From a virus, in IMG/VR virus record IMGVR_UViG_3300044617_002280, positions 1 through 47,820 of that record: 47,820 nt of DNA, one strand, 5' to 3'. The notes below the pieces were generated by a model. That model saw only the letters and a list, made by a program, of their open reading frames with translations, did not search any database and was not told the DNA's origin. Position 1 is the stretch's first letter. Every line of letters starts with the position of its first letter. The position numbers and the translations under genes are program-made. Positions 3,271 through 47,108 of the stretch are shown piece by piece.

Positions 3271-3957
3271 ATGAGTGCATGTAATTTTACCACAGAAATT
3301 AACGGAACAGATTGTATTGGAGATTCAAGAGGTCTTATTAATCAAAATTTTTTAAATTTAGATACTGCTATTTGTGAGCTGTCTGCTTCTACATTTTTAA
3401 GAGATGCAATAGGTGGTCTCGAAGAAACAGACTTCAATCAAGTACGGCTCAATTCTTCTTTGCGTACATGTTATAACTTTTACCCAGCTAAGTTTAATAA
3501 TTCTACAAACCCGTATGAAAATAGAGTATTAGGTACATATAGCAGTACACATAATTTACCAGCTTCGTTTACGTCTCCAACACAGAATGTTCTTTTAGAA
3601 CCTCTTAATAACGAGTACCCTAATTTAGATATACCGTTAATTGATGCAGCATTAATTAAATTCCGTGTACATGGTACTCTTTTTAGACCTGATGGTAGCC
3701 TGGGTATACGTACAAGAAGAAAAAACACTGAGCCATGGTATACAGTTTTAGAAACTTTTGCAGCGGGCCCGGAAAATATTTTTAACGTAGGAGAGTCAAC
3801 AACTGAAATAATTTATTTCGATAAAACCACAAATCGTTTTGAATGGGAGTTATTTGATACAGGGGTAACCCCATTCCCGGTTTCAGGCGGAATCACGCAA
3901 AACGCAGAATATAATGTAACAATAGAGTTACTCGGGTATTATTTCAGAGTTGAATAA
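3271..3957 (+). CDS. Fibre protein with 'GDSR..IN.NF' docking module
   Basis: This 228-residue protein opens with a Cys-containing segment, DCIGDSRGLINQNFLNLDTA at about residues 14-33. The same motif heads the three beta-propeller genes at 42962-47108 and the tail-collar gene at the right edge, so it is probably a shared virion-attachment module. The rest is a beta-rich domain (FRVHGTLF, LGIRTRRKN, YNVTIELLGYYFRVE) that may be a receptor-binding or decoration domain. The next gene starts 3 bases after its stop. Specific function unknown. Confidence 0.65.
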   Translation: MSACNFTTEINGTDCIGDSRGLINQNFLNLDTAICELSASTFLRDAIGGLEETDFNQVRLNSSLRTCYNFYPAKFNNSTNPYENRVLGTYSSTHNLPASFTSPTQNVLLEPLNNEYPNLDIPLIDAALIKFRVHGTLFRPDGSLGIRTRRKNTEPWYTVLETFAAGPENIFNVGESTTEIIYFDKTTNRFEWELFDTGVTPFPVSGGITQNAEYNVTIELLGYYFRVE

Positions 3958-6149: not shown

Positions 6150-6545
6150 ATGGCTACTTTTAACCCGCAAATATCTTCAACTCCAGGTGTAAGACCAACC
6201 TATAACCCAGCACTCGCTGAAACGTTTTCGTGGATACCAATACATAATGATAGCGATAGACCGCTTTTCGCTAAAGCGGTCTATTCTGTTAATAGAAATA
6301 ATCAGCTCGGTCAAGATGGGTTTGATTTTATTGGGGCTGGTAAAACATCGATACAAAATTATAACGCAATCCAAACTATTGTTACAACATTAATAAGAGA
6401 TATAACAGCTACTAACAGTTTTTTAGGAGATGGGTTAACATCAACATCTCATTTAACCGCAACCCCTATACCGGCTAATTTTATTTTACACGGCCCTATA
6501 AAAGGAGTTTCTATTGCAACTGGAGCAGTTATAGGTTACAAATAA
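6150..6545 (+). CDS. Short fibre-type protein with 'FSW..KAVY.VN' module
   Basis: This 131-residue protein begins with FSWIPIHNDSDRPLFAKAVY at residues 26-45 followed by SVN, matching the N-terminal segments of the genes at 3961 and 6545. The rest (about 80 residues) is small and beta-prone, ending in FILHGPIKGVSIATGAVIGY. It could be a minimal version of the same docking protein, perhaps an adaptor for the long repeat fibre that follows. Its stop overlaps the next start by one base (TAATG), indicating translational coupling. A perfect 12-bp inverted repeat lies within the conserved motif-coding stretch (6256-6284). Confidence 0.65.
   Translation: MATFNPQISSTPGVRPTYNPALAETFSWIPIHNDSDRPLFAKAVYSVNRNNQLGQDGFDFIGAGKTSIQNYNAIQTIVTTLIRDITATNSFLGDGLTSTSHLTATPIPANFILHGPIKGVSIATGAVIGYK
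6256..6284 (+). repeat. Perfect 12-bp inverted repeat inside a coding region
   Basis: ATAGACCGCTTT (6256-6267) and AAAGCGGTCTAT (6273-6284) enclose the 5-base loop TCGCT. No T-tract follows, so it is not a classical terminator. Confidence 0.75.
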
Positions 6546-9496
6546 TGGCGTCATTTTACCCAAAATTTTTATCTCGCACACAGTTAAATTTTAATGGTGA
6601 AATAGCAAATACGTTTAGCTGGGTACCAAACTCTGTCAGCACGCACCCAGAATACTCTCAAACTGTATTACACGTAAATACTGGGTACCCGGAAGGTTTT
6701 GTCTATGTACCGAGAGGTTTTATCGCTATTGGAGATTTTCGCTCCTTACGAGTTGTAACACCAAATACTTTTCTTGTTAACCTTTTTTCTAAAAGTATAC
6801 CTAGCATCGATAGTCTTGACAACGTACCACTCCCTTTTGGTTTATATTTACAAGGCGAAATTAACAACGCAACGGTGTTTGTAGGAGGTATTATTTTAGA
6901 ACCTTTAAATGCTTTCTACTCCGTAATAAGGGACCCCTCTATACCTATAGATTTTGAAGCAGATATCTTAGAGCTTGGTTCAGCTGATACAAACACCGAT
7001 TTTAGTGGTAGTGATACAACCTACACTAAGTTAAGTGCAAGTAAAGAAATACCGACTCATTTTCTTCATGACTCTACAGCTACAGTGATACCATCAGGTA
7101 TCACTGCTTTTTTTGAAGATACATCTTGGATTAACACTATTATAAAACAAATTAACCAGAGTACGGTTAACATTATATTAACTGGTTATAGTTCCGATTA
7201 CAATACTTTAGAAATAACAAACAAAGAAATAAAAATAACAGATGTAGTTAATTATAACTCACTTCTTTCTGGAGCAGTTGGTTGGGCAGAAATTATAGAA
7301 GGTGTAGACTATAACCACATAACGCTTGCTACACAAACAATTATATTAACAGCTACTAATGCTGACTATTCTAATTTTTTATCTTCAAACAAACAAATAA
7401 AACAAATACTCTTTTCAACAGTCTTTACAACCCCAACAGGTTTTAGTTCTGATTTTGTAGATTTAGAAATAGTTAATAAAGTAATTAGAGACCCTAGTTT
7501 TTTTACAGTAATTTCTAAACTTACAGGTTTTAGTTCTGATTTTGTAGATTTAGAAATAGATAATAAAGTAATTAGAGATCCTAATTTTTTTACAGTCTTT
7601 ACAACACCAACAGGTATACAAGCTCAGTTTGAAACTTTAAGTACAATTGATAAAAGAGTTATTAGTCCTAATTTTTCAACAGTCTTTACAACCCCAACAG
7701 GTTTTAGTTCTGATTTTGTAGATTTAGAAATAGTTAATAAAGTAATTAGAGACCCTAGTTTTTCTACAGTCTTTACAACACCGACAGGGTTTAGTTCTGA
7801 TTTTGTAGATTTAGAAATAGTTAATAAAGTAATTAGAGACCCTAGTTTTTTTACAGTAATTTCTAAACTTACAGGTACACAGACATGGTTTGAGTCTCTT
7901 AGTACGTTAGATAGTAGATTACCAGAACCCAACACTTCTTTAGTGACAGCTATTCTTACAGGGCTTAATTATGATTTCTTAGATTCAGAAGTAGTTAACA
8001 AGATTGTTAAAAATATTAATTTTTCTACGGAGACAGCTACTTTTACGGGCACTCAAACATGGTTTGAATCTCTTAGTACGCTAGATAGTAGATTACCAGA
8101 ACCCAACACTTCTTTAGTGACATCTATTCTTACGGGCACTCAAACATGGTTTGAATCTCTTAGTACGCTAGATAGTAGATTACCAGAACCCAACACTTCT
8201 TTAGTGACAGCTACTATTACGGGCACTCAAACATGGTTTGAGTCTCTTAGCACGTTAGATAGTAGTTTACCAGAACCCAACACTTCTTTAGTGACAGCTA
8301 TTCTTACAGGTACAAACACCTGGTTTGAGACACTTAGCACATTAAAAGATCTTTACTATCATGAAGAAACATATAATTTACCGTATTTATATTTTCAAGC
8401 TTCAGGAACAAATACTTGGTTTGAAACACTTAGTACTTTAAAAGATTTATACTCTCATAAAGACGTCCTTTTTTTACCTACTTATTTTTATGAAGCCTCT
8501 GGTACAAACACCTGGTTTGAGACACTTAGCACATTAAAAGATCTTTTCTCCCACTATGAGTACTACATACTACCAACCATTAACTATGAAGTTACAGGTA
8601 CAAACACCTGGTTTGAGACACTTAGCACATTAAAAGATCTTTTCTCTCATCAAGAGTATTATATCTTACCTAGTATTAATTTCGAAGCCTCTGGTACAAA
8701 CACCTGGTTTGAGACACTTAGCACATTAAAAGATCTTTTCTCTCATCAAGAGTATTATATCTTACCTAGTATTAATTTCGAAGCCTCTGGTACAAACACC
8801 TGGTTTGAGACACTTAGCACATTAAAAGATCTTTTCTCTCATCAAGAGTACTACATACTACCAACCATTAACTATGAAGTTACAGGGTCGCATATTCGTT
8901 TTGAAACACTTAGCGGGTTAGATAATCTTTTCTCTCATCAAGAGTACTACATACTACCAACCATTAACTATGAAGTTACAGGGTCGCATACAACAATAGA
9001 ACTGTTAACAAGTTTAGGCATGCTCTTTCAGGCTTCCGAATTTTGTAATAATACTACCCAGCTTTCAGGTATTAACACGGTTTCAACACAAATAACTGCA
9101 TCACCCACCACCACAAAATATTTCTTTGAAAATAATAATACATCATCTATCAAGCTAACCGGTGTAAGTACAATTTTAACACGATTAAGTGCATCTTCAT
9201 CGAATAATAGATATTATTTTGAAGGAAAAACAGTGCTCGAACAAATAACAGGTGTAAGTACAATATCAACAAGACTTTCTGCAAACCCGTTAACAATAAA
9301 GTCTTTTGGAGAAAATAAAACCATTTATAATATCCTAACAGGTAGAAACGGAGACTATACGTTGCTTTACGAAAAAAATATAACACCGTTTATAGAAAAA
9401 ACAACTACTTTACAAACAACCACTCTTGGTGGCTCTTGTTTAGATATTTCTCAAGTTTTTTTAATTGGAAAAGTAGTTGTACCTTCAAGTCTTTAA
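6545..9496 (+). CDS. Long repeat fibre protein (87/96-bp tandem array)
   Basis: This 983-residue protein starts with FSWVP (24-28) and TVLHVN (40-45), the docking module shared with 3961 and 6150. From about residue 210 to the end it consists of about 29- to 32-residue repeats beginning with Thr-Gly. In order these are TGFSSDFVDLEI..., TGTQTWFESLSTLDSRL..., TGTNTWFETLSTLKDLF... and finally TGVSTISTRLSA... types. The repeat core is W-F-E-(S/T)-L-S-T-L. Several neighbouring units are identical or nearly so in DNA, implying recent duplication. Such a regular array suggests a long rod or superhelical fibre. Translation start overlaps the preceding stop by one base. An intrinsic-terminator-like hairpin sits inside the gene at 7083-7114. 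Confidence 0.7.
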   Translation: MASFYPKFLSRTQLNFNGEIANTFSWVPNSVSTHPEYSQTVLHVNTGYPEGFVYVPRGFIAIGDFRSLRVVTPNTFLVNLFSKSIPSIDSLDNVPLPFGLYLQGEINNATVFVGGIILEPLNAFYSVIRDPSIPIDFEADILELGSADTNTDFSGSDTTYTKLSASKEIPTHFLHDSTATVIPSGITAFFEDTSWINTIIKQINQSTVNIILTGYSSDYNTLEITNKEIKITDVVNYNSLLSGAVGWAEIIEGVDYNHITLATQTIILTATNADYSNFLSSNKQIKQILFSTVFTTPTGFSSDFVDLEIVNKVIRDPSFFTVISKLTGFSSDFVDLEIDNKVIRDPNFFTVFTTPTGIQAQFETLSTIDKRVISPNFSTVFTTPTGFSSDFVDLEIVNKVIRDPSFSTVFTTPTGFSSDFVDLEIVNKVIRDPSFFTVISKLTGTQTWFESLSTLDSRLPEPNTSLVTAILTGLNYDFLDSEVVNKIVKNINFSTETATFTGTQTWFESLSTLDSRLPEPNTSLVTSILTGTQTWFESLSTLDSRLPEPNTSLVTATITGTQTWFESLSTLDSSLPEPNTSLVTAILTGTNTWFETLSTLKDLYYHEETYNLPYLYFQASGTNTWFETLSTLKDLYSHKDVLFLPTYFYEASGTNTWFETLSTLKDLFSHYEYYILPTINYEVTGTNTWFETLSTLKDLFSHQEYYILPSINFEASGTNTWFETLSTLKDLFSHQEYYILPSINFEASGTNTWFETLSTLKDLFSHQEYYILPTINYEVTGSHIRFETLSGLDNLFSHQEYYILPTINYEVTGSHTTIELLTSLGMLFQASEFCNNTTQLSGINTVSTQITASPTTTKYFFENNNTSSIKLTGVSTILTRLSASSSNNRYYFEGKTVLEQITGVSTISTRLSANPLTIKSFGENKTIYNILTGRNGDYTLLYEKNITPFIEKTTTLQTTTLGGSCLDISQVFLIGKVVVPSSL
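7083..7114 (+). terminator. Intragenic intrinsic-terminator-like hairpin
   Basis: CAGTGATACC (7083-7092), loop ATCA, GGTATCACTG (7097-7106), then C and seven T. This has all elements of a factor-independent terminator on the coding strand, but it lies about 540 bases into the 983-codon gene. Confidence 0.5.
7439..9067 (+). repeat. Tandem array: ten 87-bp units then 96-bp units
   Basis: Units start at 7439, 7526, 7613, 7700, 7787, 7874, 7961, 8048, 8135 and 8222 (87-bp spacing), then at 8309, 8405, 8501, 8597, 8693, 8789, 8885 and 8981 (96-bp spacing; the last is 87 bp). Two successive 96-bp stretches around 8645-8836 appear identical. All are in frame within the fibre gene. Confidence 0.9.

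Positions 9497-35296: not shown

Positions 35297-35304
<8 letters not shown>
34411..35304 (+). CDS. GT9 (heptosyltransferase-like) glycosyltransferase
   Basis: This 297-residue protein follows the glycosyltransferase family 9 pattern: RPGALGDIIMTFNFL at residues 8-22, WWGWQELVNLL with IYQIGGPDDPQ in the middle, HIGLDSVFNH as the nucleotide-sugar binding segment, and VILFGSTQADAFGYPHN. It ends with a Cys-rich tail (PCQPC and two further Cys) as in some environmental members. Substrate is unknown: host envelope glycan, phage virion protein or DNA are all possible. The stop overlaps the next gene by 8 bases, so both products probably act in one pathway. A strong imperfect hairpin with GGTACC cores is at 34628-34664. 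Confidence 0.75.
34628..34664 (+). repeat. Inverted repeat with a one-base bulge inside the GT9 gene
   Basis: TTATAGGGTACCCTT (34628-34642) pairs with AAGGGTACCCCTATAA (34649-34664) with a single bulged C in the 3' arm and loop TACATG. Confidence 0.7.
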
Positions 35305-38787
<3,483 letters not shown>

Positions 38788-38846: not shown

Positions 38847-39791
38847 TTAGAAAGTACCGCAGTCAATTATAAAATTTTCAATTACAGAAGAGTCTTTTGT
38901 ACCAGAAAGATTATTGGTTATTGTTAAACTACCAGCTCCATCTGTATATATAGTGTTATTATCGAGTGTTGTAGTTCCTGTTACAGAAAGATTATTACCG
39001 AGTGTAACAGCTTGATCAACGTTAAGTGTGGAATCTATATCAACAGCACCGACAACATTTAAGTTACTACTTAAATTTGTTACAGATGTTACGGTTAAGG
39101 AAGAGCCAAGTGTTGTAGCACCTGTAATGTTCGCTGTACCCCCTATTGTTAAATCTCCAGTACCGGTGTAGTTACCAATGGCGGAAATATTACCAGAAAC
39201 GGTTAATCTCTCGTTAGGAGTTGCGGTATTAATACCAATGTACCCAGGAGCCTCTACACTACCTTTAATGATTAAAGCAGATACCCCATCATCTTTAAAT
39301 TCAGCAATATCCGTTGTACCTTCTTGATTAACGACTAATGCGGTTTCAGAACCGGCATTAGTTATGTTAAAAGATCTAGTCTGGTATGTAGTTGTTTCTA
39401 AAGTTGTTGTATCACCTAAAACAGTAAGATTACCAGTAACGGTAACGTTACCACTTGCATCAATGTTTGTAAAAGTACCTTCACGAGAAGAATTTATTAC
39501 GTTAGTACCGTTGATAGAAAAACTATTTGCATCAACATTGCCATCAACTTCAACATCTCCGAGCGCGCTTACTGTGTTAGTGAATGTCTTGATACCGCCA
39601 ACTGTTTGATCTGTGACACGGTCAACAAATAAACCAGGACCAGCAATACCAATTGTATTACCTTCACCTCCACCATTAGCACCGTAGTAAAGTACTTTAT
39701 CTACTTCGTTAAATGCTATTTCACCACCAGAGAGCGCTGGACCACCGGGTAGTCCGACTAAACGACGTTTAATTTGAATAATGTTGTTCAT
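38847..39791 (-). CDS. Tail fibre with MTD-like N-terminus
   Basis: This 314-residue protein starts IQIKRRLVGLPGGPALSGGE with IAFNEVDKVLYYG, the N-terminal virion-attachment pattern seen in major-tropism-determinant and other fibres. The shaft is made of short beta repeats (GNVTVTGNLTVLGDTTT; YIGINTATPNERLTVSGNIS) like those of the fibre at 21124. It ends FIIDCGTF, one of four successive genes with a similar C-terminal tag. No C-type-lectin variable domain is present, so there is no sign of a diversity-generating retroelement. An intrinsic terminator follows. Confidence 0.75.
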   Translation of the reverse strand: MNNIIQIKRRLVGLPGGPALSGGEIAFNEVDKVLYYGANGGGEGNTIGIAGPGLFVDRVTDQTVGGIKTFTNTVSALGDVEVDGNVDANSFSINGTNVINSSREGTFTNIDASGNVTVTGNLTVLGDTTTLETTTYQTRSFNITNAGSETALVVNQEGTTDIAEFKDDGVSALIIKGSVEAPGYIGINTATPNERLTVSGNISAIGNYTGTGDLTIGGTANITGATTLGSSLTVTSVTNLSSNLNVVGAVDIDSTLNVDQAVTLGNNLSVTGTTTLDNNTIYTDGAGSLTITNNLSGTKDSSVIENFIIDCGTF

Positions 39792-39806
39792 ACTTGTTTG
39801 TATATA

Positions 39807-39814
39807 TATTTATG
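39807..39814 (-). promoter_or_regulatory. CATAAATA late-promoter-like motif
   Basis: On the - strand the motif ends 15 bases before ATG 39791. Confidence 0.4.
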
Positions 39815-39834
39815 CTAAGTTACTATTTTTTTTT

Positions 39835-40077
39835 TTAAAAGTAACCACCATCTCTTACATTTAAATTAATAACTTCAGGGGTACGCGGAAAAAACGGACC
39901 ATCTGATGGTAGAGCTGAAGTTGAAAATTGTAAGAGAGAAACCGGGTAATCTACAAATCTTAACATTTTTGATTTTGTTTCTTCAGTAAAAAAAGCGCTT
40001 AAGTTAGGTATCAGAGCTATTATCTTTACAAGCTCATTATCTTTTTTTGTAAAAACAACTCGTTTGAATATACTCAT
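39835..40077 (-). CDS. Small virion-associated candidate ending DGGYF
   Basis: This 80-residue protein (MSIFKRVVFTKKDNELVKII...) has a mixed alpha/beta composition and ends INLNVRDGGYF, matching the C-terminal tag of the neighbouring 154-residue protein. It is 3 bases from that gene. Function unknown; location between the neck protein and fibre genes suggests a minor virion component. Confidence 0.55.
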   Translation of the reverse strand: MSIFKRVVFTKKDNELVKIIALIPNLSAFFTEETKSKMLRFVDYPVSLLQFSTSALPSDGPFFPRTPEVINLNVRDGGYF

Positions 40078-40080
40078 AAA

Positions 40081-40545
40081 TTAAAAAAATCCTCCATCAG
40101 TTATTCTTAAATCTAGCGCTGTTGTTGAAGGTGGCATTGTATATGTGACAATGTGATTAGGGTACGCGGTTGTTAAAACTGCAAACGTCCGCGCGGTAAC
40201 ACCAGTAAGAGAATCAGTACGAGTTCTTAAAAATATATAATTAACATTCATTACCGGGCTATCAACATCCGCTAATACTTGTAATTTTTCACGATCATCA
40301 ATGGTAAATGGTATTGAAGCTGGATGAGGTATATACCCAGGAACAACAGGTGGAATGTACTTAGATTTCGGCTGCACAAACGATGGATGCGGAACGTAAT
40401 TTTGCACAGGGGAAGGTTTATATCTAGTCTTACCTGTATTTGTTATAGTGGTTGGTTGTGGTACGTAGTCAGGTACAGGTGGAGGTACATATTTTGTTGT
40501 GTTATTCACCCCTCCATATCCACCATAAACATCTGTAACATTCAT
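40081..40545 (-). CDS. Proline-rich protein with three KYxPxxVPxYxPHP-like repeats
   Basis: This 154-residue protein has three tandem units of about 21-23 residues in its first 85 residues: KYVPPPVPDYVPQP, RYKPSPVQNYVPHP and KYIPPVVPGYIPHP. A beta-rich C-terminal domain of about 60 residues follows and ends LRITDGGFF. The repeats look like polyproline-II ligands or an extended spacer. It starts 4 bases after the neck protein gene and may connect neck or whisker structures; that is inference. Confidence 0.6.
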   Translation of the reverse strand: MNVTDVYGGYGGVNNTTKYVPPPVPDYVPQPTTITNTGKTRYKPSPVQNYVPHPSFVQPKSKYIPPVVPGYIPHPASIPFTIDDREKLQVLADVDSPVMNVNYIFLRTRTDSLTGVTARTFAVLTTAYPNHIVTYTMPPSTTALDLRITDGGFF

Positions 40546-40549
40546 AGGT

Positions 40550-41530
40550 TTAGAATGTTGAACCGTCTAAGTTAAATAAATCAAACTGTCCTGCAGCTGC
40601 AGTATATGTAAGCTTACCAGTCGTACCGCTACCTGTTATTGTAAATGTTGTTAACCCGTTATTTTGGGTAACTGGTTTACTAATTACAGTCCCTGCAATT
40701 TCTTTATTATATTCTTCTACGGAGTTAATAAATTGATTCATCTCGTTATTAAAGATACCTCCTAATAATGTAGACGATGTGTCAGCGGTAAACGTTGAGG
40801 CGTTTTGGGCGTTTGCTAACTTATCTGTAAGCGGTATAAAATGACCTGCTGTATATTGTGGAGCAGCTTCCCCGCCACTATCATAGTAATCGTATATACA
40901 CTGTGCGCTATTGTCTGCACTATCTGGATACGGTTGAGTAAGTTCTTCTGGGTTTTCTCCGCCTGAGAGTCTACCATAATCCCCACCGTCATTGATTTGT
41001 ATATTAACAGGTTCACTGTGCATACCAGGCTCGTACGAGTATTCCCATCTTTTGCATTTTATATACCATACATAATGCCCCATTAAAGAATTTGTAAGTT
41101 CAAGATTTTGATCATCTCTTTCAGTAATTTCATATATTGGTGCCCCTCTAAACCCAGGTCTATCCCCGAAACCACCATACTCATGCATTTCAATTAAGTC
41201 CCCAGCTTTAGGCTCTCTACCTGCCCCGAAGAGTTCTGAAAATGCAGAAATATGTACTACAGCGGTCATATCACAATCAGCCATTATACCGAACTTAGAA
41301 AGCATAATGGAATCATTAGTTATACTAGTAAACATTATTATTTCACCGGTAGCTTCAAACGCTGAAGTAGGATCTTCCCCGTAAATAAAATTATGACTTG
41401 TAAGCGTGTAACCGTTTGTGTAATACCTTACTTTAGTACCATAGTGATTAATCTGTTCACGCCACCACCCGCTGTAATTATTACGCTCATTGCTATTGAT
41501 GTCCTTATTAAGGTAGCGCACCGTATTCAT
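40550..41530 (-). CDS. Neck protein, gp14-like
   Basis: This 326-residue protein matches the layout of the T4-type neck protein gp14: WWREQINHYGTKVRYYTNGY at the N-terminus, then FIYGEDPTSAFEATGEI, MLSKFGIMADCDMTAVVHIS, a PKAGDLIEM loop and IYEITERDDQNLELT. In T4 the gp13/gp14 complex closes filled heads and joins them to tails. Residues after about 190 (including INDGGDYGRLSGG and a helical stretch) extend beyond the part I can align with T4 gp14, ending FDLFNLDGSTF. Neighbours are an unrecognised gene upstream and small proteins downstream. Confidence 0.75.
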   Translation of the reverse strand: MNTVRYLNKDINSNERNNYSGWWREQINHYGTKVRYYTNGYTLTSHNFIYGEDPTSAFEATGEIIMFTSITNDSIMLSKFGIMADCDMTAVVHISAFSELFGAGREPKAGDLIEMHEYGGFGDRPGFRGAPIYEITERDDQNLELTNSLMGHYVWYIKCKRWEYSYEPGMHSEPVNIQINDGGDYGRLSGGENPEELTQPYPDSADNSAQCIYDYYDSGGEAAPQYTAGHFIPLTDKLANAQNASTFTADTSSTLLGGIFNNEMNQFINSVEEYNKEIAGTVISKPVTQNNGLTTFTITGSGTTGKLTYTAAAGQFDLFNLDGSTF

Positions 41531-42069: not shown

Positions 42070-42100
42070 AACCCCTCGCAAGCGAGGGGTTAAGCATTTT
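42070..42100. terminator. Intrinsic terminator after the acidic protein gene
   Basis: AACCCCTCGC (42070-42079) and GCGAGGGGTT (42082-42091) form a 10-bp GC-rich stem; T-runs flank it on both strands. It ends the - strand transcript of 42124-42921. Confidence 0.85.
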
Positions 42101-42123: not shown

Positions 42124-42921
42124 TTATTTGAAAAAATCTCCAGGTTTAATGTTGGATGTTTTAACCTTTGTGTTCTTACAGAGTTCTTTTTCAGAGCCTG
42201 TTAATTTTTTAGGCTCTGGCTCTTCGGTGAACTTACCAGTATGGGCTGTCCCTTTTTTAACTTTTAATTTACTCGCAACTACATATTTTTTCTTTGTTTC
42301 GAGATCTTTACCAGATTTTAAATTAACAAGAGGGGTACCGTGAGTTTCTACTGATTCAACAGCCTTTACATTTTTTTGATCTTCTTCTCCCTTTTCCTCT
42401 TCACCTTCTTCATAATTAAATTCTTCTTCTGGAGAGACTTCACTATTTTCTTCTTCAGTTTCTTCTTCAGCCTCTTCGCTGATTTTATTTAAAATATCAT
42501 TAAGCTTATCAACTACACCCTGAAGATCAGATACTAAATCAGAAACTTCATCTTCTGTGCTTTCAATTTCGTCTACTGCTTCTTCGTTTGAAGTCGGAAC
42601 TTCAAAATCTAATGAAGTAGAAGAATCGGTTTCAGGTTTCTTACTTGTTAATTCGTCTTCCTCGTTAATTGTTGACTTGAATAATTTTTCGAATGAATTA
42701 TAGGATTCCATAGGTTTTGTTTTTTTCTGTTTTAAAGGGGTTACTTTTTGTGGGAGTTTTACTTTTTCCGGTCCGTCTCCAACAAGTTCAGCGTCTCCAA
42801 TACTTTGTTTTTTTGTAACAACAATATCTTTTTTCACCGGTTTTGCAACTTCTTTATCTTTTTTACCTTCAGATAAAAGAACTTGATTGTAGATATCTGT
42901 AAGAGTTGGAGCTGTTTTCAT
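42124..42921 (-). CDS. Acidic Lys/Glu-rich protein, possible prohead core/scaffold
   Basis: This 265-residue protein opens LTDIYNQVLLSEG, then is dominated by Lys/Pro-rich and later Glu-rich runs (residues about 115-185, with helical LVSDLQGVVDKLNDILNKIS), ending KPGDFFK. Very acidic helical proteins near neck and capsid genes of T4-like phages are often prohead core (scaffold) proteins, and the N-terminus resembles cyanophage examples, but this is weak evidence. It has two overlapping late-type motifs upstream and an intrinsic terminator downstream, so it is a single-gene transcript, possibly strongly expressed. Confidence 0.45.
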   Translation of the reverse strand: MKTAPTLTDIYNQVLLSEGKKDKEVAKPVKKDIVVTKKQSIGDAELVGDGPEKVKLPQKVTPLKQKKTKPMESYNSFEKLFKSTINEEDELTSKKPETDSSTSLDFEVPTSNEEAVDEIESTEDEVSDLVSDLQGVVDKLNDILNKISEEAEEETEEENSEVSPEEEFNYEEGEEEKGEEDQKNVKAVESVETHGTPLVNLKSGKDLETKKKYVVASKLKVKKGTAHTGKFTEEPEPKKLTGSEKELCKNTKVKTSNIKPGDFFK

Positions 42922-42961: not shown

Positions 42962-44362
42962 TTATAGTGTTTCTTTAAAAAACACACCTGTAACTGTCGC
43001 TCTCATAAACCCTTGTTGATTGCCCGTGTTAATAATAACAGCTTTATCCTCCACGCACGGAGCAACAAAAATATCTCCGTTTTCAAGAACAGTAGCACCG
43101 ATGTATTTTTGTAATGCTGAGCCTACAGGCGGAGAAAACAAAACTGTATCGTCTTTAAAATTGTAAAAGGCGAATTTACCAGCGCCATACGGCACCATAC
43201 ACACTCGCCCGTCTGGTAATAGTATACTTGTAATATAATTCCATGCACCGGCAACAAAGCTATTCACGCCTACTGGTGTAAACGTATCAGTATCTGGATC
43301 ATATACCATAGCACTAGATGAATTATACGGTGTTAAAAATATTTTACCATTTGGTAATAAAACCGCACTACTAAAAGCTCCTAGTTGAGAGTTATTTAAA
43401 ACTCCAGAACCAACAAACTCTACAACATGTGGCTCGTTTACAGAAATTCTTACCATTTGTGTTGCGTCGTGCGGGGTTAAATAAACATACTTTCCGTCTA
43501 AAGACAGTGTACCACTAAAAAAACTTTTATTACCGGTTGTTGTGAAAACAGAACTTTTAATTTCTTTTATAGTATCGGTACTTGGATCGTAAATTATTGT
43601 TCCGTCTTGACGACCAAACGGGGTAAGTAAAATTCTACCATCAGGTAAAAGAGTTCCACCGTTATATGGATTAGATACCCCTGGAATAGATAAATCTATT
43701 TTAGAGATGAAAAGAGTGTTTGTTTGCGGGGACCATATGTAAATATTTTTTGGTGTACCGGGTATTAAACATACTTTACCGTCTGGTAGTAGTATTGCGT
43801 TTGCAAAGCCAATAGGTATAGGTACGTTTATTTTTGTAAAAAGCCCGTTATATGGGTTATATATCGACCCGGTACCGAGCGCTCCTGGAAATAGTAATAA
43901 ACGACCGTCCCCGATTGTTAATACTCCGAGATACTGCATCACGGGGTTTATATTATTTGTATTAATAAATGTATATGATTCTGTTCCACAAAGCACCGGA
44001 GTTAAAGTCATTAGTTGATTAAAATAATCTAGTAAAAGAGCTGATTTTGTAACTTGCTGGGAAAATTTATTTTCTTTTTCTTCTGCATATAAAGAAGAAT
44101 TTGTTGCACCAACGTGCCACGGCGGGCTATAAGACTGCGACACAGTTACAATACCGGTTTCTGGTTCTGTTACGACACCGTTTTTACCGGTTATACGGGT
44201 AATTGACCCGGTGCCGGTTTGATTTAATTGTTGTGCAACCCCGTAAACCCCGCATGCTATATCTGCTAAAATATTAAAGTTATCATTTATCGTTTTTAAA
44301 GAGTCTCCGATAACTTCATCTTCAGATATTATTTTTATATTAGCAACACAATTTTTTTTCAT
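42962..44362 (-). CDS. Beta-propeller fibre protein A (seven blades)
   Basis: This 466-residue protein has an N-terminal docking module (VIGDSLKTINDNFNILADIA at about 17-36), a short linker, and seven repeats of the form 'G..LLPDGRV.L.P.....IYDP.TDT', for example NGGTLLPDGRILLTPFGRQD and SSAVLLPNGKIFLTPYNSSS. Seven kelch-like units predict a complete seven-bladed beta-propeller. No enzyme active site is apparent. It would place a propeller at the virion surface as a receptor or glycan binder. Start overlaps the upstream paralogue stop by 4 bases, implying coupled, stoichiometric expression. Confidence 0.75.
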   Translation of the reverse strand: MKKNCVANIKIISEDEVIGDSLKTINDNFNILADIACGVYGVAQQLNQTGTGSITRITGKNGVVTEPETGIVTVSQSYSPPWHVGATNSSLYAEEKENKFSQQVTKSALLLDYFNQLMTLTPVLCGTESYTFINTNNINPVMQYLGVLTIGDGRLLLFPGALGTGSIYNPYNGLFTKINVPIPIGFANAILLPDGKVCLIPGTPKNIYIWSPQTNTLFISKIDLSIPGVSNPYNGGTLLPDGRILLTPFGRQDGTIIYDPSTDTIKEIKSSVFTTTGNKSFFSGTLSLDGKYVYLTPHDATQMVRISVNEPHVVEFVGSGVLNNSQLGAFSSAVLLPNGKIFLTPYNSSSAMVYDPDTDTFTPVGVNSFVAGAWNYITSILLPDGRVCMVPYGAGKFAFYNFKDDTVLFSPPVGSALQKYIGATVLENGDIFVAPCVEDKAVIINTGNQQGFMRATVTGVFFKETL

Positions 44363-45759
44363 ATATATAACCCGGTTAGATAGTTTAAGGAAAAACTATT
44401 TTGATGGTAATACTGCAAATAAGCGGCGTATCTGCTATCTTTTGGAGCAAAAAATACATCCCCGTTACCAAGAACAATGCCTTTAGCGTGAGAAGTACCA
44501 GGTCCTAATTTTATACCTGTGTCGTGAAGTGTGTCGGTTCTCGGATCGTAGATTTTAATGGTGTGGTTGTTTTTCGGTGTAATTAAAACTCTTCCATCAA
44601 CAAGAAGACAGCCACCTATACTTGAATCTCCAAGTGGGTATTCTCCACTTGTAGGAGTAAACACACGAGTTACCGGGTCAAATATACACGCATCCGGTCT
44701 ATTCGTCGGTACTAAAAACACTCTACCATCAGACAACATAACACCACCAGAGAACCACCCTTCACCTGTTACAACTGTAGATTGTATAAACGTTAAAGGC
44801 ATTATTGGAGATTCTGGATGCGAAAAATCAACATTTAAATCAAATAAAGCAGGTACCTTATTTCTATACGGTATCAGCAATATTTTATTATCGGGGAGAA
44901 GCACCCCGTCAATATAACCTTCATCTCCAGGATACGAACCTTGGGAATTTCTTATCGTGCGCAAATAAGGGTTATAAACTATATCTTTTGTACTATTGTA
45001 CGGTATGTGTAAAATTTCACCACTCGGGGTTAATATACCTTTTGAAAATCCTCCGGGTAAATTGTAAATATTTGTATCCGGTATTACAGTTAATGTATCT
45101 TGCCCAGGATCATATATTCTAGAATATATTGTATTAAAAGGTGTAAGATACACTCTACCGTTAGGAAGATAAACCGTGCTTGAGTGCGCACTATGTACCT
45201 CTGGGTAACTTTTATCTTTTGATTCAAATATAGTGTTTGTAAACGGATCATAAATTTTTGCAGTATCTAAATAATTTGCTGCAAGGTACACTCTACCGTC
45301 CATTAATAATCTGCTACCTACATATTTATCTTGCTCTATTCCGTAATCATACTCTAAAAAAGTTACAGTTTCACTACCAGGCATTGGGTAGTTTTGTGCT
45401 ACAATACTTTGTAGATGCTGTAGCACTAAATCAGATCTTAAATATTGCATAGAAACTCTATTAGAAGGAGTTTCCTCGTATAATGGTTTATTAGTTTTCC
45501 CGACAAACCAATACGGGCAGACAGCTGTTGAAATTGTTACATCTCCGGTACCTGAATTGTCATTTGTATAAACCGTAATACCTGTTCCAGCTATAATTTT
45601 ACCAACGCTTGCACCTGTCTTTCCTGTAACAATACTTGATACTTGATAAAGGGTTGTATCTATATTTTCAAAATTTTTATTTAACGTAGTTCGAGAATCT
45701 GATAAGCATTCAGTATCATTAATTCTTGAAACATTATTTGATGGACAAGGAGCACTCAT
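44359..45759 (-). CDS. Beta-propeller fibre protein B (seven blades)
   Basis: This 466-residue paralogue has docking segment ECLSDSRTTLNKNFENIDTT at about 16-35. A small beta region (TGKTGASVGKIIAGTGITVY) follows, then seven blades (SSTVYLPNGRVYLTPFNTIY; SGGVMLSDGRVFLVPTNRPD; GGCLLVDGRVLITPKNNHTI and others). It has the same length as protein A but is clearly diverged, so duplication is old or diversification is fast. The stop overlaps the next start by four bases and its own start overlaps the upstream stop by one base. Confidence 0.75.
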   Translation of the reverse strand: MSAPCPSNNVSRINDTECLSDSRTTLNKNFENIDTTLYQVSSIVTGKTGASVGKIIAGTGITVYTNDNSGTGDVTISTAVCPYWFVGKTNKPLYEETPSNRVSMQYLRSDLVLQHLQSIVAQNYPMPGSETVTFLEYDYGIEQDKYVGSRLLMDGRVYLAANYLDTAKIYDPFTNTIFESKDKSYPEVHSAHSSTVYLPNGRVYLTPFNTIYSRIYDPGQDTLTVIPDTNIYNLPGGFSKGILTPSGEILHIPYNSTKDIVYNPYLRTIRNSQGSYPGDEGYIDGVLLPDNKILLIPYRNKVPALFDLNVDFSHPESPIMPLTFIQSTVVTGEGWFSGGVMLSDGRVFLVPTNRPDACIFDPVTRVFTPTSGEYPLGDSSIGGCLLVDGRVLITPKNNHTIKIYDPRTDTLHDTGIKLGPGTSHAKGIVLGNGDVFFAPKDSRYAAYLQYYHQNSFSLNYLTGLYI

Positions 45760-47108
45760 TATAGTTTATTTAAAAACGGGCTATTTAATACAGAGTAGTG
45801 AAAGCTTTCGGTACAAGGTATTGAGAGAACAACCCCGGTGTTTGAATTACTCGGGAACAAAAATACCCGGTTATTATCTAAAAGGGTGCAACCATAATAG
45901 CTTTTATTAAAAGAGTCAATATTCGGGGTTTCAAATTCTTCAGTCACTGTATCAAAAATAACGGCATTTTTACCGTTAGCTGCAACAAGAAGTATTCTTC
46001 CGTCTGGTAAAAGTGTTCCACCTTCATACATCGCTGTACCTATAAAAACATTACCTGTATATCTTACAGCATCCGTGACAGGGTTATAGATCGCTGCTTT
46101 TAAAGAATTGTATGGAATACAAAATATTTCCCCCGTACGTAACAACACTCCACCTCGAAAAGCCCCAAGAACAGGATCAGTTAATGTATTCGCTGTATAT
46201 ACCGTGTTGTTTCGTAACACCCAAAATTTATCTGTATTATACGGTATAAATAACACTTTACCGTTTGGCGCTAAACAACACCCATAAACAGATTGAGGGG
46301 TTGTAGTTGGCATTGCAAAATTAGAAGCTGTATTTGTTCTAGGGTTATAAACACCGTAGCTTGTCATATTATGTGGGCATAATAAAACCCTACCATCTGG
46401 TAAAAGTGTACCCCCAATAAATGCTCCGCTAACTATATTCGGCCACGGTACAAATGTGACTCTATTAGCTCCAACTTCATTTATATTGTAAATTGCAGCA
46501 CTTGTATTATTAAACGGTACAGCGAAAACTTTACCGTTTGATAAAAGAACACCTCCCCAAAAAGCTGAAAGCGTAACACCAAACCCTCCAACTGTTTGAG
46601 AAAAACTTTTTCTATAATCAAATAAATATGAATCAGCTGAATTAAATCGAGGTATAAACACTTTACCGTCTAACATTCTTACCCCGCCTCTAAATGCGTT
46701 TACTGTTGATGTATTATTTATACCAGAAACAAACCCTACAACAGTAGACATATTTTTAAGTGGGACGTTGTAACCGGTTACATCCTGTATGTGTTTTAAG
46801 AAATCCGCAGACAATGTATTTGCTAATGAAACACTGTTATTATTTTCACTCAATAAAGGCACCTTTCTTTGGTTTATATACCATTTCGGACAATCTTCTC
46901 TAGTAGCAGTAACTTCTTGATTTAATGTTTTTATGGAAATACCTGGACCACCAATAACTGAATTTACACCAAACTCTGTGACTTCACCTAATGTAGCACA
47001 TAGGGTGCACGCTATAGTTTGTAATTTATCAAAATTAAAATTTATAGAAGAAAGAGATTCCCCTATATATTCTCTACTACCAATGGTTGTAGTGTAGCGG
47101 TTTGCCAT
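45759..47108 (-). CDS. Beta-propeller fibre protein C (seven blades)
   Basis: This 449-residue paralogue has docking segment YIGESLSSINFNFDKLQTIA at about 14-33, then 'GPGISIKTLNQEV', then seven blades (WGGVLLSNGKVFAVPFNNTS; IGGTLLPDGRVLLCPHNMTS; EGGTLLPDGRILLVAANGKN). Several loops contain Cys not found in A and B. Three adjacent propellers with different loops look like parallel receptor-binding options or a hetero-oligomer. It starts 5 bases after the tail-collar gene stop. Confidence 0.75.
   Translation of the reverse strand: MANRYTTTIGSREYIGESLSSINFNFDKLQTIACTLCATLGEVTEFGVNSVIGGPGISIKTLNQEVTATREDCPKWYINQRKVPLLSENNNSVSLANTLSADFLKHIQDVTGYNVPLKNMSTVVGFVSGINNTSTVNAFRGGVRMLDGKVFIPRFNSADSYLFDYRKSFSQTVGGFGVTLSAFWGGVLLSNGKVFAVPFNNTSAAIYNINEVGANRVTFVPWPNIVSGAFIGGTLLPDGRVLLCPHNMTSYGVYNPRTNTASNFAMPTTTPQSVYGCCLAPNGKVLFIPYNTDKFWVLRNNTVYTANTLTDPVLGAFRGGVLLRTGEIFCIPYNSLKAAIYNPVTDAVRYTGNVFIGTAMYEGGTLLPDGRILLVAANGKNAVIFDTVTEEFETPNIDSFNKSYYGCTLLDNNRVFLFPSNSNTGVVLSIPCTESFHYSVLNSPFLNKL

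Follow-up and report, generated by a model that had tools for sequence, protein, structure and literature searches.

The metagenome-derived virus record IMGVR_UViG_3300044617_002280 of IMG/VR, analysed over its entire length of 47,820 bases (hereafter the window), carries three neighbouring genes, here named P1, P2 and P3, whose products are predicted to end in seven-bladed β-propellers. The explanation we favour, and regard as reasonably probable, is that the three proteins are virion fibres of a contractile-tailed, T4-like phage, with a shared dock and exchangeable heads that act as non-catalytic seven-bladed adhesins. Each begins with a dock, predicted to be helical, which is followed by a stalk-like stretch and then by a propeller, and the three are paralogues along their full length (about 28-30% identity). 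P1 and P2 overlap by four bases (ATGA) and P2 and P3 by a single base (TAATG), and the three are probably co-translated. An original prediction, made from the letters of the window alone, had described three tandem paralogous genes with overlaps of 4 and 1 bases and a common dock; the reading frames and junction sequences bear out the layout, and the dock (residues 1-45) proved real, with profile matches on all three proteins.

The blades were counted with a hidden Markov model (HMM) trained on outside sequences only, namely two Cylindrospermopsis phages and the metagenomic contig G017, which avoids circularity. By this model P1, P2 and P3 have exactly seven blades apiece (106.7, 145.7 and 146.4 bits, respectively), in agreement with the seven repeats per protein originally predicted; the best of 300 composition-matched shuffles reached 9.4 bits, and none had more than three domains. 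The repeats are ~45 residues long and more degenerate than the 'LLPDGRV.L.P...IYDP' unit by which they had been described, blade 4 of P1, for example, scoring 0.2 bits. Pfam returned sub-threshold Kelch_6 and Kelch_1 matches on P1 (Kelch_6 at 19.4 bits, where 25.3 are needed) and no Kelch match on P2 or P3.

AlphaFold2 was run for P1 and P3 with a six-sequence alignment as input. The P1 model (mbc25f5a2b789) has a mean predicted local distance difference test score (pLDDT) of 69 and a predicted template modelling score (pTM) of 0.68, and the P3 model (m64dfd3c945ed) has values of 64 and 0.65; the propeller blocks mostly lie at pLDDT 70-94, the means being pulled down by dock and stalk. In both models six blades come after an N-terminal strand, and a set of three strands comes last, a strand order indicating that the ring is closed by its first strand. 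As modelled, P1 and P3 are closed seven-bladed propellers, so that the closure proposed as a check of the original prediction is seen in both. Foldseek aligned the two models with the seven-bladed virginiamycin/streptogramin B lyase at target-normalised template modelling (TM) scores of 0.84 for P1 and 0.84-0.86 for P3, and also matched WD40 and galactose oxidase propellers. P2 probably adopts the same seven-bladed fold, as suggested by its HMM blades and its homology to the other two.

The dock, predicted to be helical, spans about residues 1-45 and follows the pattern 'IGDSL.TIN.NF..L..C'. Residues 46-125 of P1-P3 include a 'G.GI.V....G.VTIS' segment, of a kind that we take to be frequent in trimeric tail-fibre stems. 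Besides the trio, the dock HMM matches two further proteins of the window, one of them the neighbouring collar fibre (Table 1), as well as further structural genes in related phages.

Direct searches of viral contigs with P3 or with the three-protein alignment found nothing. A scan of viral contigs with a degenerate blade pattern led to G014 (IMGVR_UViG_3300042332_001032), a divergent phage contig that has the same trio in identical order and with matching neighbours; the same triple, which the original prediction had proposed to look for in related phages, thus does recur. Identity to the G014 orthologues is 47.6% for P1, 46.9-48% for P2 and 41.6-44% for P3 (73% for the nearby neck protein), that is, 42-48% between orthologues compared with about 27-33% between paralogues, and in a tree each window protein pairs with its G014 orthologue with 99-100% support. 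This pairing indicates that the triplication predates the split between the window and G014 and, judged by these proteins, is old. Further relatives were reached via the neck protein (63-71% identical): L061, L064 and the group L062/L063/L065, which represents one gene layout here. In all of them the same slots hold two short dock proteins of 176-222 residues with a different C-terminal head, and the trio is present in one of the four distinct, fully covered close relatives (G014 only). On this comparison of gene content, the dock slot is exchangeable, accepting other heads in relatives. Searches among isolated phages with the neck protein, with the dock consensus and with the short dock protein from one relative found no named relatives, and the collar match in Flavobacterium phage immuto led to no trio.

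A 607-residue protein of G014 (L074:857-2680) has up to three tandem docks, the middle one weak (independent E-value 0.18), placed before another domain. Upstream of the collar gene, the next large gene (L074:4268-6451) encodes an NHL propeller, which is common to G014, L061, L062 and L064. The putative adhesin cluster of G014 is interrupted by a 420-residue gene on the opposite strand (L074:6466-7728) that by eye apparently encodes a TnpB-like transposon protein.

Galactose oxidases and related copper oxidases are the closest solved relatives of P1-P3 by sequence (profile E-values down to 3e-10), and the nearest fold is that of streptogramin B lyase; these are the grounds for supposing that the propellers are fibre-borne enzymes that modify surface sugars, in a galactose-oxidase-, lyase- or sialidase-like manner. 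We consider this very improbable. The columns of Cys228 and Tyr272 of galactose oxidase are not conserved, being occupied by L/V/R and F/H/F in P1/P2/P3, and the pair that forms the thioether cofactor is thus absent, for which reason galactose-oxidase activity was rejected. Sialidase activity was likewise rejected, since the sialidase/BNR Asp box S-x-D-x-G-x-x-W does not occur in P1-P3. The three proteins contain few His residues (a single one in the P3 propeller), and across the six proteins of the window and G014 no His or Cys is invariant; for the remaining copper ligands of the oxidase, Tyr495, His496 and His581, the comparison was of such invariance. The positions that are invariant in the propeller hold for the most part structural residues (G, P, L, N and D). 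The likeness to streptogramin B lyase, whose catalytic residues are a His pair and a Glu, is one of fold only (10-16% identity). Galactose oxidase and the AA5 copper oxidases belong to the same superfamily and have kelch-like seven-bladed propellers, from which P1-P3 differ in lacking the cofactor residues and accessory domains and in being mounted on a phage dock. An enzymatic homologue had been named as evidence that would speak against the original prediction; nothing at the sites examined pointed to an enzyme.

In the favoured explanation, each protein would plug into the particle via its short N-terminal helical dock, which would also serve the neighbouring gp10/gp12-like collar fibre, a short stalk would extend, and the seven-bladed propeller would be presented at the tip. 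The propellers would most likely be non-catalytic adhesins for three different host-surface ligands, probably glycans, the set having presumably arisen by old duplication and been retained as three distinct proteins, with related phages placing other heads in the same dock slots. Fibres with non-catalytic binding heads are supported by the common dock, by the location beside the tail collar and neck genes, by a slot whose heads can be exchanged and by the lack of the catalytic motifs tested; we further infer that P1-P3 are present in the virion, at the baseplate or the neck, as trimers that bind ligands. The adhesin function is made plausible by known propeller heads on the baseplate-associated phi11 gp45 receptor-binding protein and phiKZ gp131C (4GBF; PMC4901313), and by Pectobacterium phage vB_PcaM_CBB, where one (CBB_552) of the kelch propellers CBB_550, CBB_552 and CBB_554 was found in the virion (PMC5259590). 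Several points weigh against this explanation. AlphaFold2 assigns low confidence to dock and stalk, host cells were not bound by the carbohydrate module of the analogous neck fibre in A-1(L) (PMC10966104), and the propeller does not evolve faster than the dock between orthologues (46-51 and 45-58% identity, respectively), unlike many receptor-binding tips engaged in an arms race.

The position of the trio between the tail collar gene and the T4 gp14-like neck gene also bears on a rather unlikely alternative, in which the proteins would serve a mechanical or sensory purpose as whiskers of the neck or fibres of the collar, comparable to T4 fibritin (wac) and to the neck fibres of A-1(L); the propellers would then hold or retract tail fibres and not bind the host. 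The trio lies upstream of the neck gene; in T4, wac is located between gene 12 and gene 13. The T4 gp10/gp12/wac region and the A-1(L) neck fibres occupy a comparable place by collar and neck genes and have a fibre role. In A-1(L) a single operon holds the three neck-fibre genes, gp80-gp82, the non-binding carbohydrate module being that of gp80; the paper mentions no propeller in them, unlike the trio (PMC10966104). Gene position alone is not decisive, however, P1-P3 have no fibritin-like match in Pfam or PHROG, and a dock shared with the tail collar/gp10-like protein is a better fit to the baseplate. It is very unlikely that P1-P3 assemble into a 1:1:1 hetero-oligomer, in which one platform would bear all three propeller heads, instead of three separate homotrimeric fibres, even though their lengths are similar, their genes overlap and all three are retained in order in G014. 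Three propellers can form one platform in the phi11 receptor-binding protein (PMC4901313), but that platform is a homotrimer; the dock is also found on single-copy proteins, and nothing in the sequences bears on hetero-assembly. We give correspondingly little credence to the idea that the three are obligate 1:1:1 partners whose propellers read different ligands at once, attachment then needing combined features of the host surface. If true, this would make the trio a heteromeric propeller adhesin; the literature searched yielded no such case.

Among the known systems closest to the favoured fibres with propeller heads are the CBB genes. CBB_550, CBB_552 and CBB_554 lie within about 4 kb on the gene map, and from CBB_548 to CBB_554 (L077:1197-6465) a short N-terminus, MLPF...EYGN, is common to alternating laminin-G-type and kelch heads. 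Similar to the trio, this cluster thus has three neighbouring paralogous propeller genes and an N-terminus shared across different head types. The CBB propellers, however, are 265-285 residues long and described as six-bladed, and their genes have a different dock and alternate with laminin-G-type genes, whereas the genes of the trio adjoin one another directly and encode seven blades each; in sequence, the CBB proteins show no significant similarity to P1-P3 (best E-value 0.05). Multiple copies of RCC1-type propeller genes have been reported from 121Q and PBEC04 (PMC5259590). CrV-01T gp012 and Cr-LKS4 g13 of the Cylindrospermopsis phages share with the trio seven LLPDGRV-type blades, their C-terminal placement and a location beside virion structural genes, but are single genes of 1130-1138 residues with near-identical blades, another N-terminus and no trio. 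The phi11 gp45 propeller is five-bladed, unlike those of the trio; phiKZ gp131C is seven-bladed (PMC4901313) like the trio, but is the product of a single gene in another fibre family. The same-length tandem paralogues gp133-135 of phiKZ were also considered and set aside, as they belong to a different fibre family and have no propeller signal by sequence. The Ackermannviridae tail spikes TSP1-4 are a set of adhesins whose N-terminal domains are conserved and whose receptor-binding heads can be exchanged (PMC11414711); they form one branched tail-spike complex, whereas the trio gives no evidence of branching.

The original prediction had known of no earlier description of a phage receptor-binding system made of three neighbouring kelch-like propellers. 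The claim fails in part, since CBB_550/552/554 are known; the new element is that three seven-bladed propellers stand back to back on one dock, with three distinct orthologues retained in a distant relative. The trio is most likely a fresh example of the known phage adhesins with exchangeable heads. In one phage group the shared dock carries three diverged propeller heads, and in its relatives other heads fill the same slot, which makes dock-and-head exchange directly testable.

Beyond these phages, the blade pattern hit 17 viral loci, all of which were confirmed as members of the family by the HMM, and a scan of cellular genomes with the same pattern gave six loci, none of which was confirmed; the propeller family thus looks virus-enriched. 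Eight of the viral contigs have two adjacent propeller-like open reading frames (ORFs) of about 330 and 341-349 residues. Adjacent propeller genes recur in a second phage lineage. A tblastn search of 50,697 isolated phage records matched only the two Cylindrospermopsis phages, suggesting that most isolated phages are without this propeller family. LLPDGRV-type viral propellers of unrelated contigs (L049, L051, L052, L053 and L010) share a C-terminal motif, examples being LSPYWNHN, LAPYFNKL, LSPHFNKR, LSPFYNRS and LGPYLNKR. P3 terminates in NSPFLNKL and its G014 orthologue in NPLFNKL; P1 and P2 are without the motif.

Table 1. Coordinates of the trio, its parts and other features in the window
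Feature	Position	Strand	Basis
P1, propeller fibre paralogue 1 (putative), 466 aa	42962..44362	-	intact ORF
P1 dock, residues 1-45	44228..44362	-	dock HMM E=6e-19; AlphaFold2 helix 18-47, low confidence
P1 seven-bladed propeller (predicted), about residues 129-447	43022..43978	-	strand pattern: closing strand + seven blades; TM 0.84
P2, propeller fibre paralogue 2 (putative), 466 aa	44359..45759	-	intact ORF
P2 dock, residues 1-46	45622..45759	-	dock HMM E=5e-20
P2 seven-bladed propeller (predicted), about residues 131-450	44410..45369	-	seven HMM blades
P3, propeller fibre paralogue 3 (putative), 449 aa	45759..47108	-	intact ORF
P3 dock, residues 1-42	46983..47108	-	dock HMM E=4e-21; AlphaFold2 helix 15-41, low confidence
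P3 seven-bladed propeller (predicted), about residues 122-432	45813..46745	-	strand pattern; TM 0.84-0.86
Tail collar / gp10-gp12-like fibre, truncated at contig edge	47114..47818	-	dock HMM E=5e-9; PHROG tail collar fibre E=4e-15
228-aa protein, same dock + short different head	3271..3957	+	dock HMM E=1e-21
Acidic 265-aa protein, directly downstream of trio	42124..42921	-	51% to G014 homologue
Terminator-like hairpin	42070..42091	-	9-pair stem then T-rich tail; consensus match only
T4 gp14-like neck protein (head closure Hc2), synteny anchor	40550..41530	-	PHROG 679 Hc2 E=6e-12

A full-length homologue of the collar protein adjoins the G014 trio, and the copy of a relative has a weak match to the C-terminal domain of T4 gp10. 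The acidic protein has weak homologues in L060, L062 and L064 and retains its position in relatives, and the hairpin at 42070-42091 may terminate the presumed operon. A defence role for the trio was unsupported within the reach of PADLOC. The gp14-like neck protein has 326 residues in the window, 306 in G014 and ~227 in relatives without propellers, its C-terminal extension co-occurring with the propeller trio. It is one of four neighbouring minus-strand proteins (38847-41530) with related tails, DCGTF, RDGGYF, TDGGFF and LDGSTF, and one G014 protein has a similar C-terminus, LDGGTF. Elsewhere in the window, a glycosyltransferase family 2 gene (35297-36994) adjoins a collagen-like gene of 591 residues (36991-38766), and tandem repeats of 87 and 96 bases are found at 7412-8975, within a gene of 983 residues (6545-9496).

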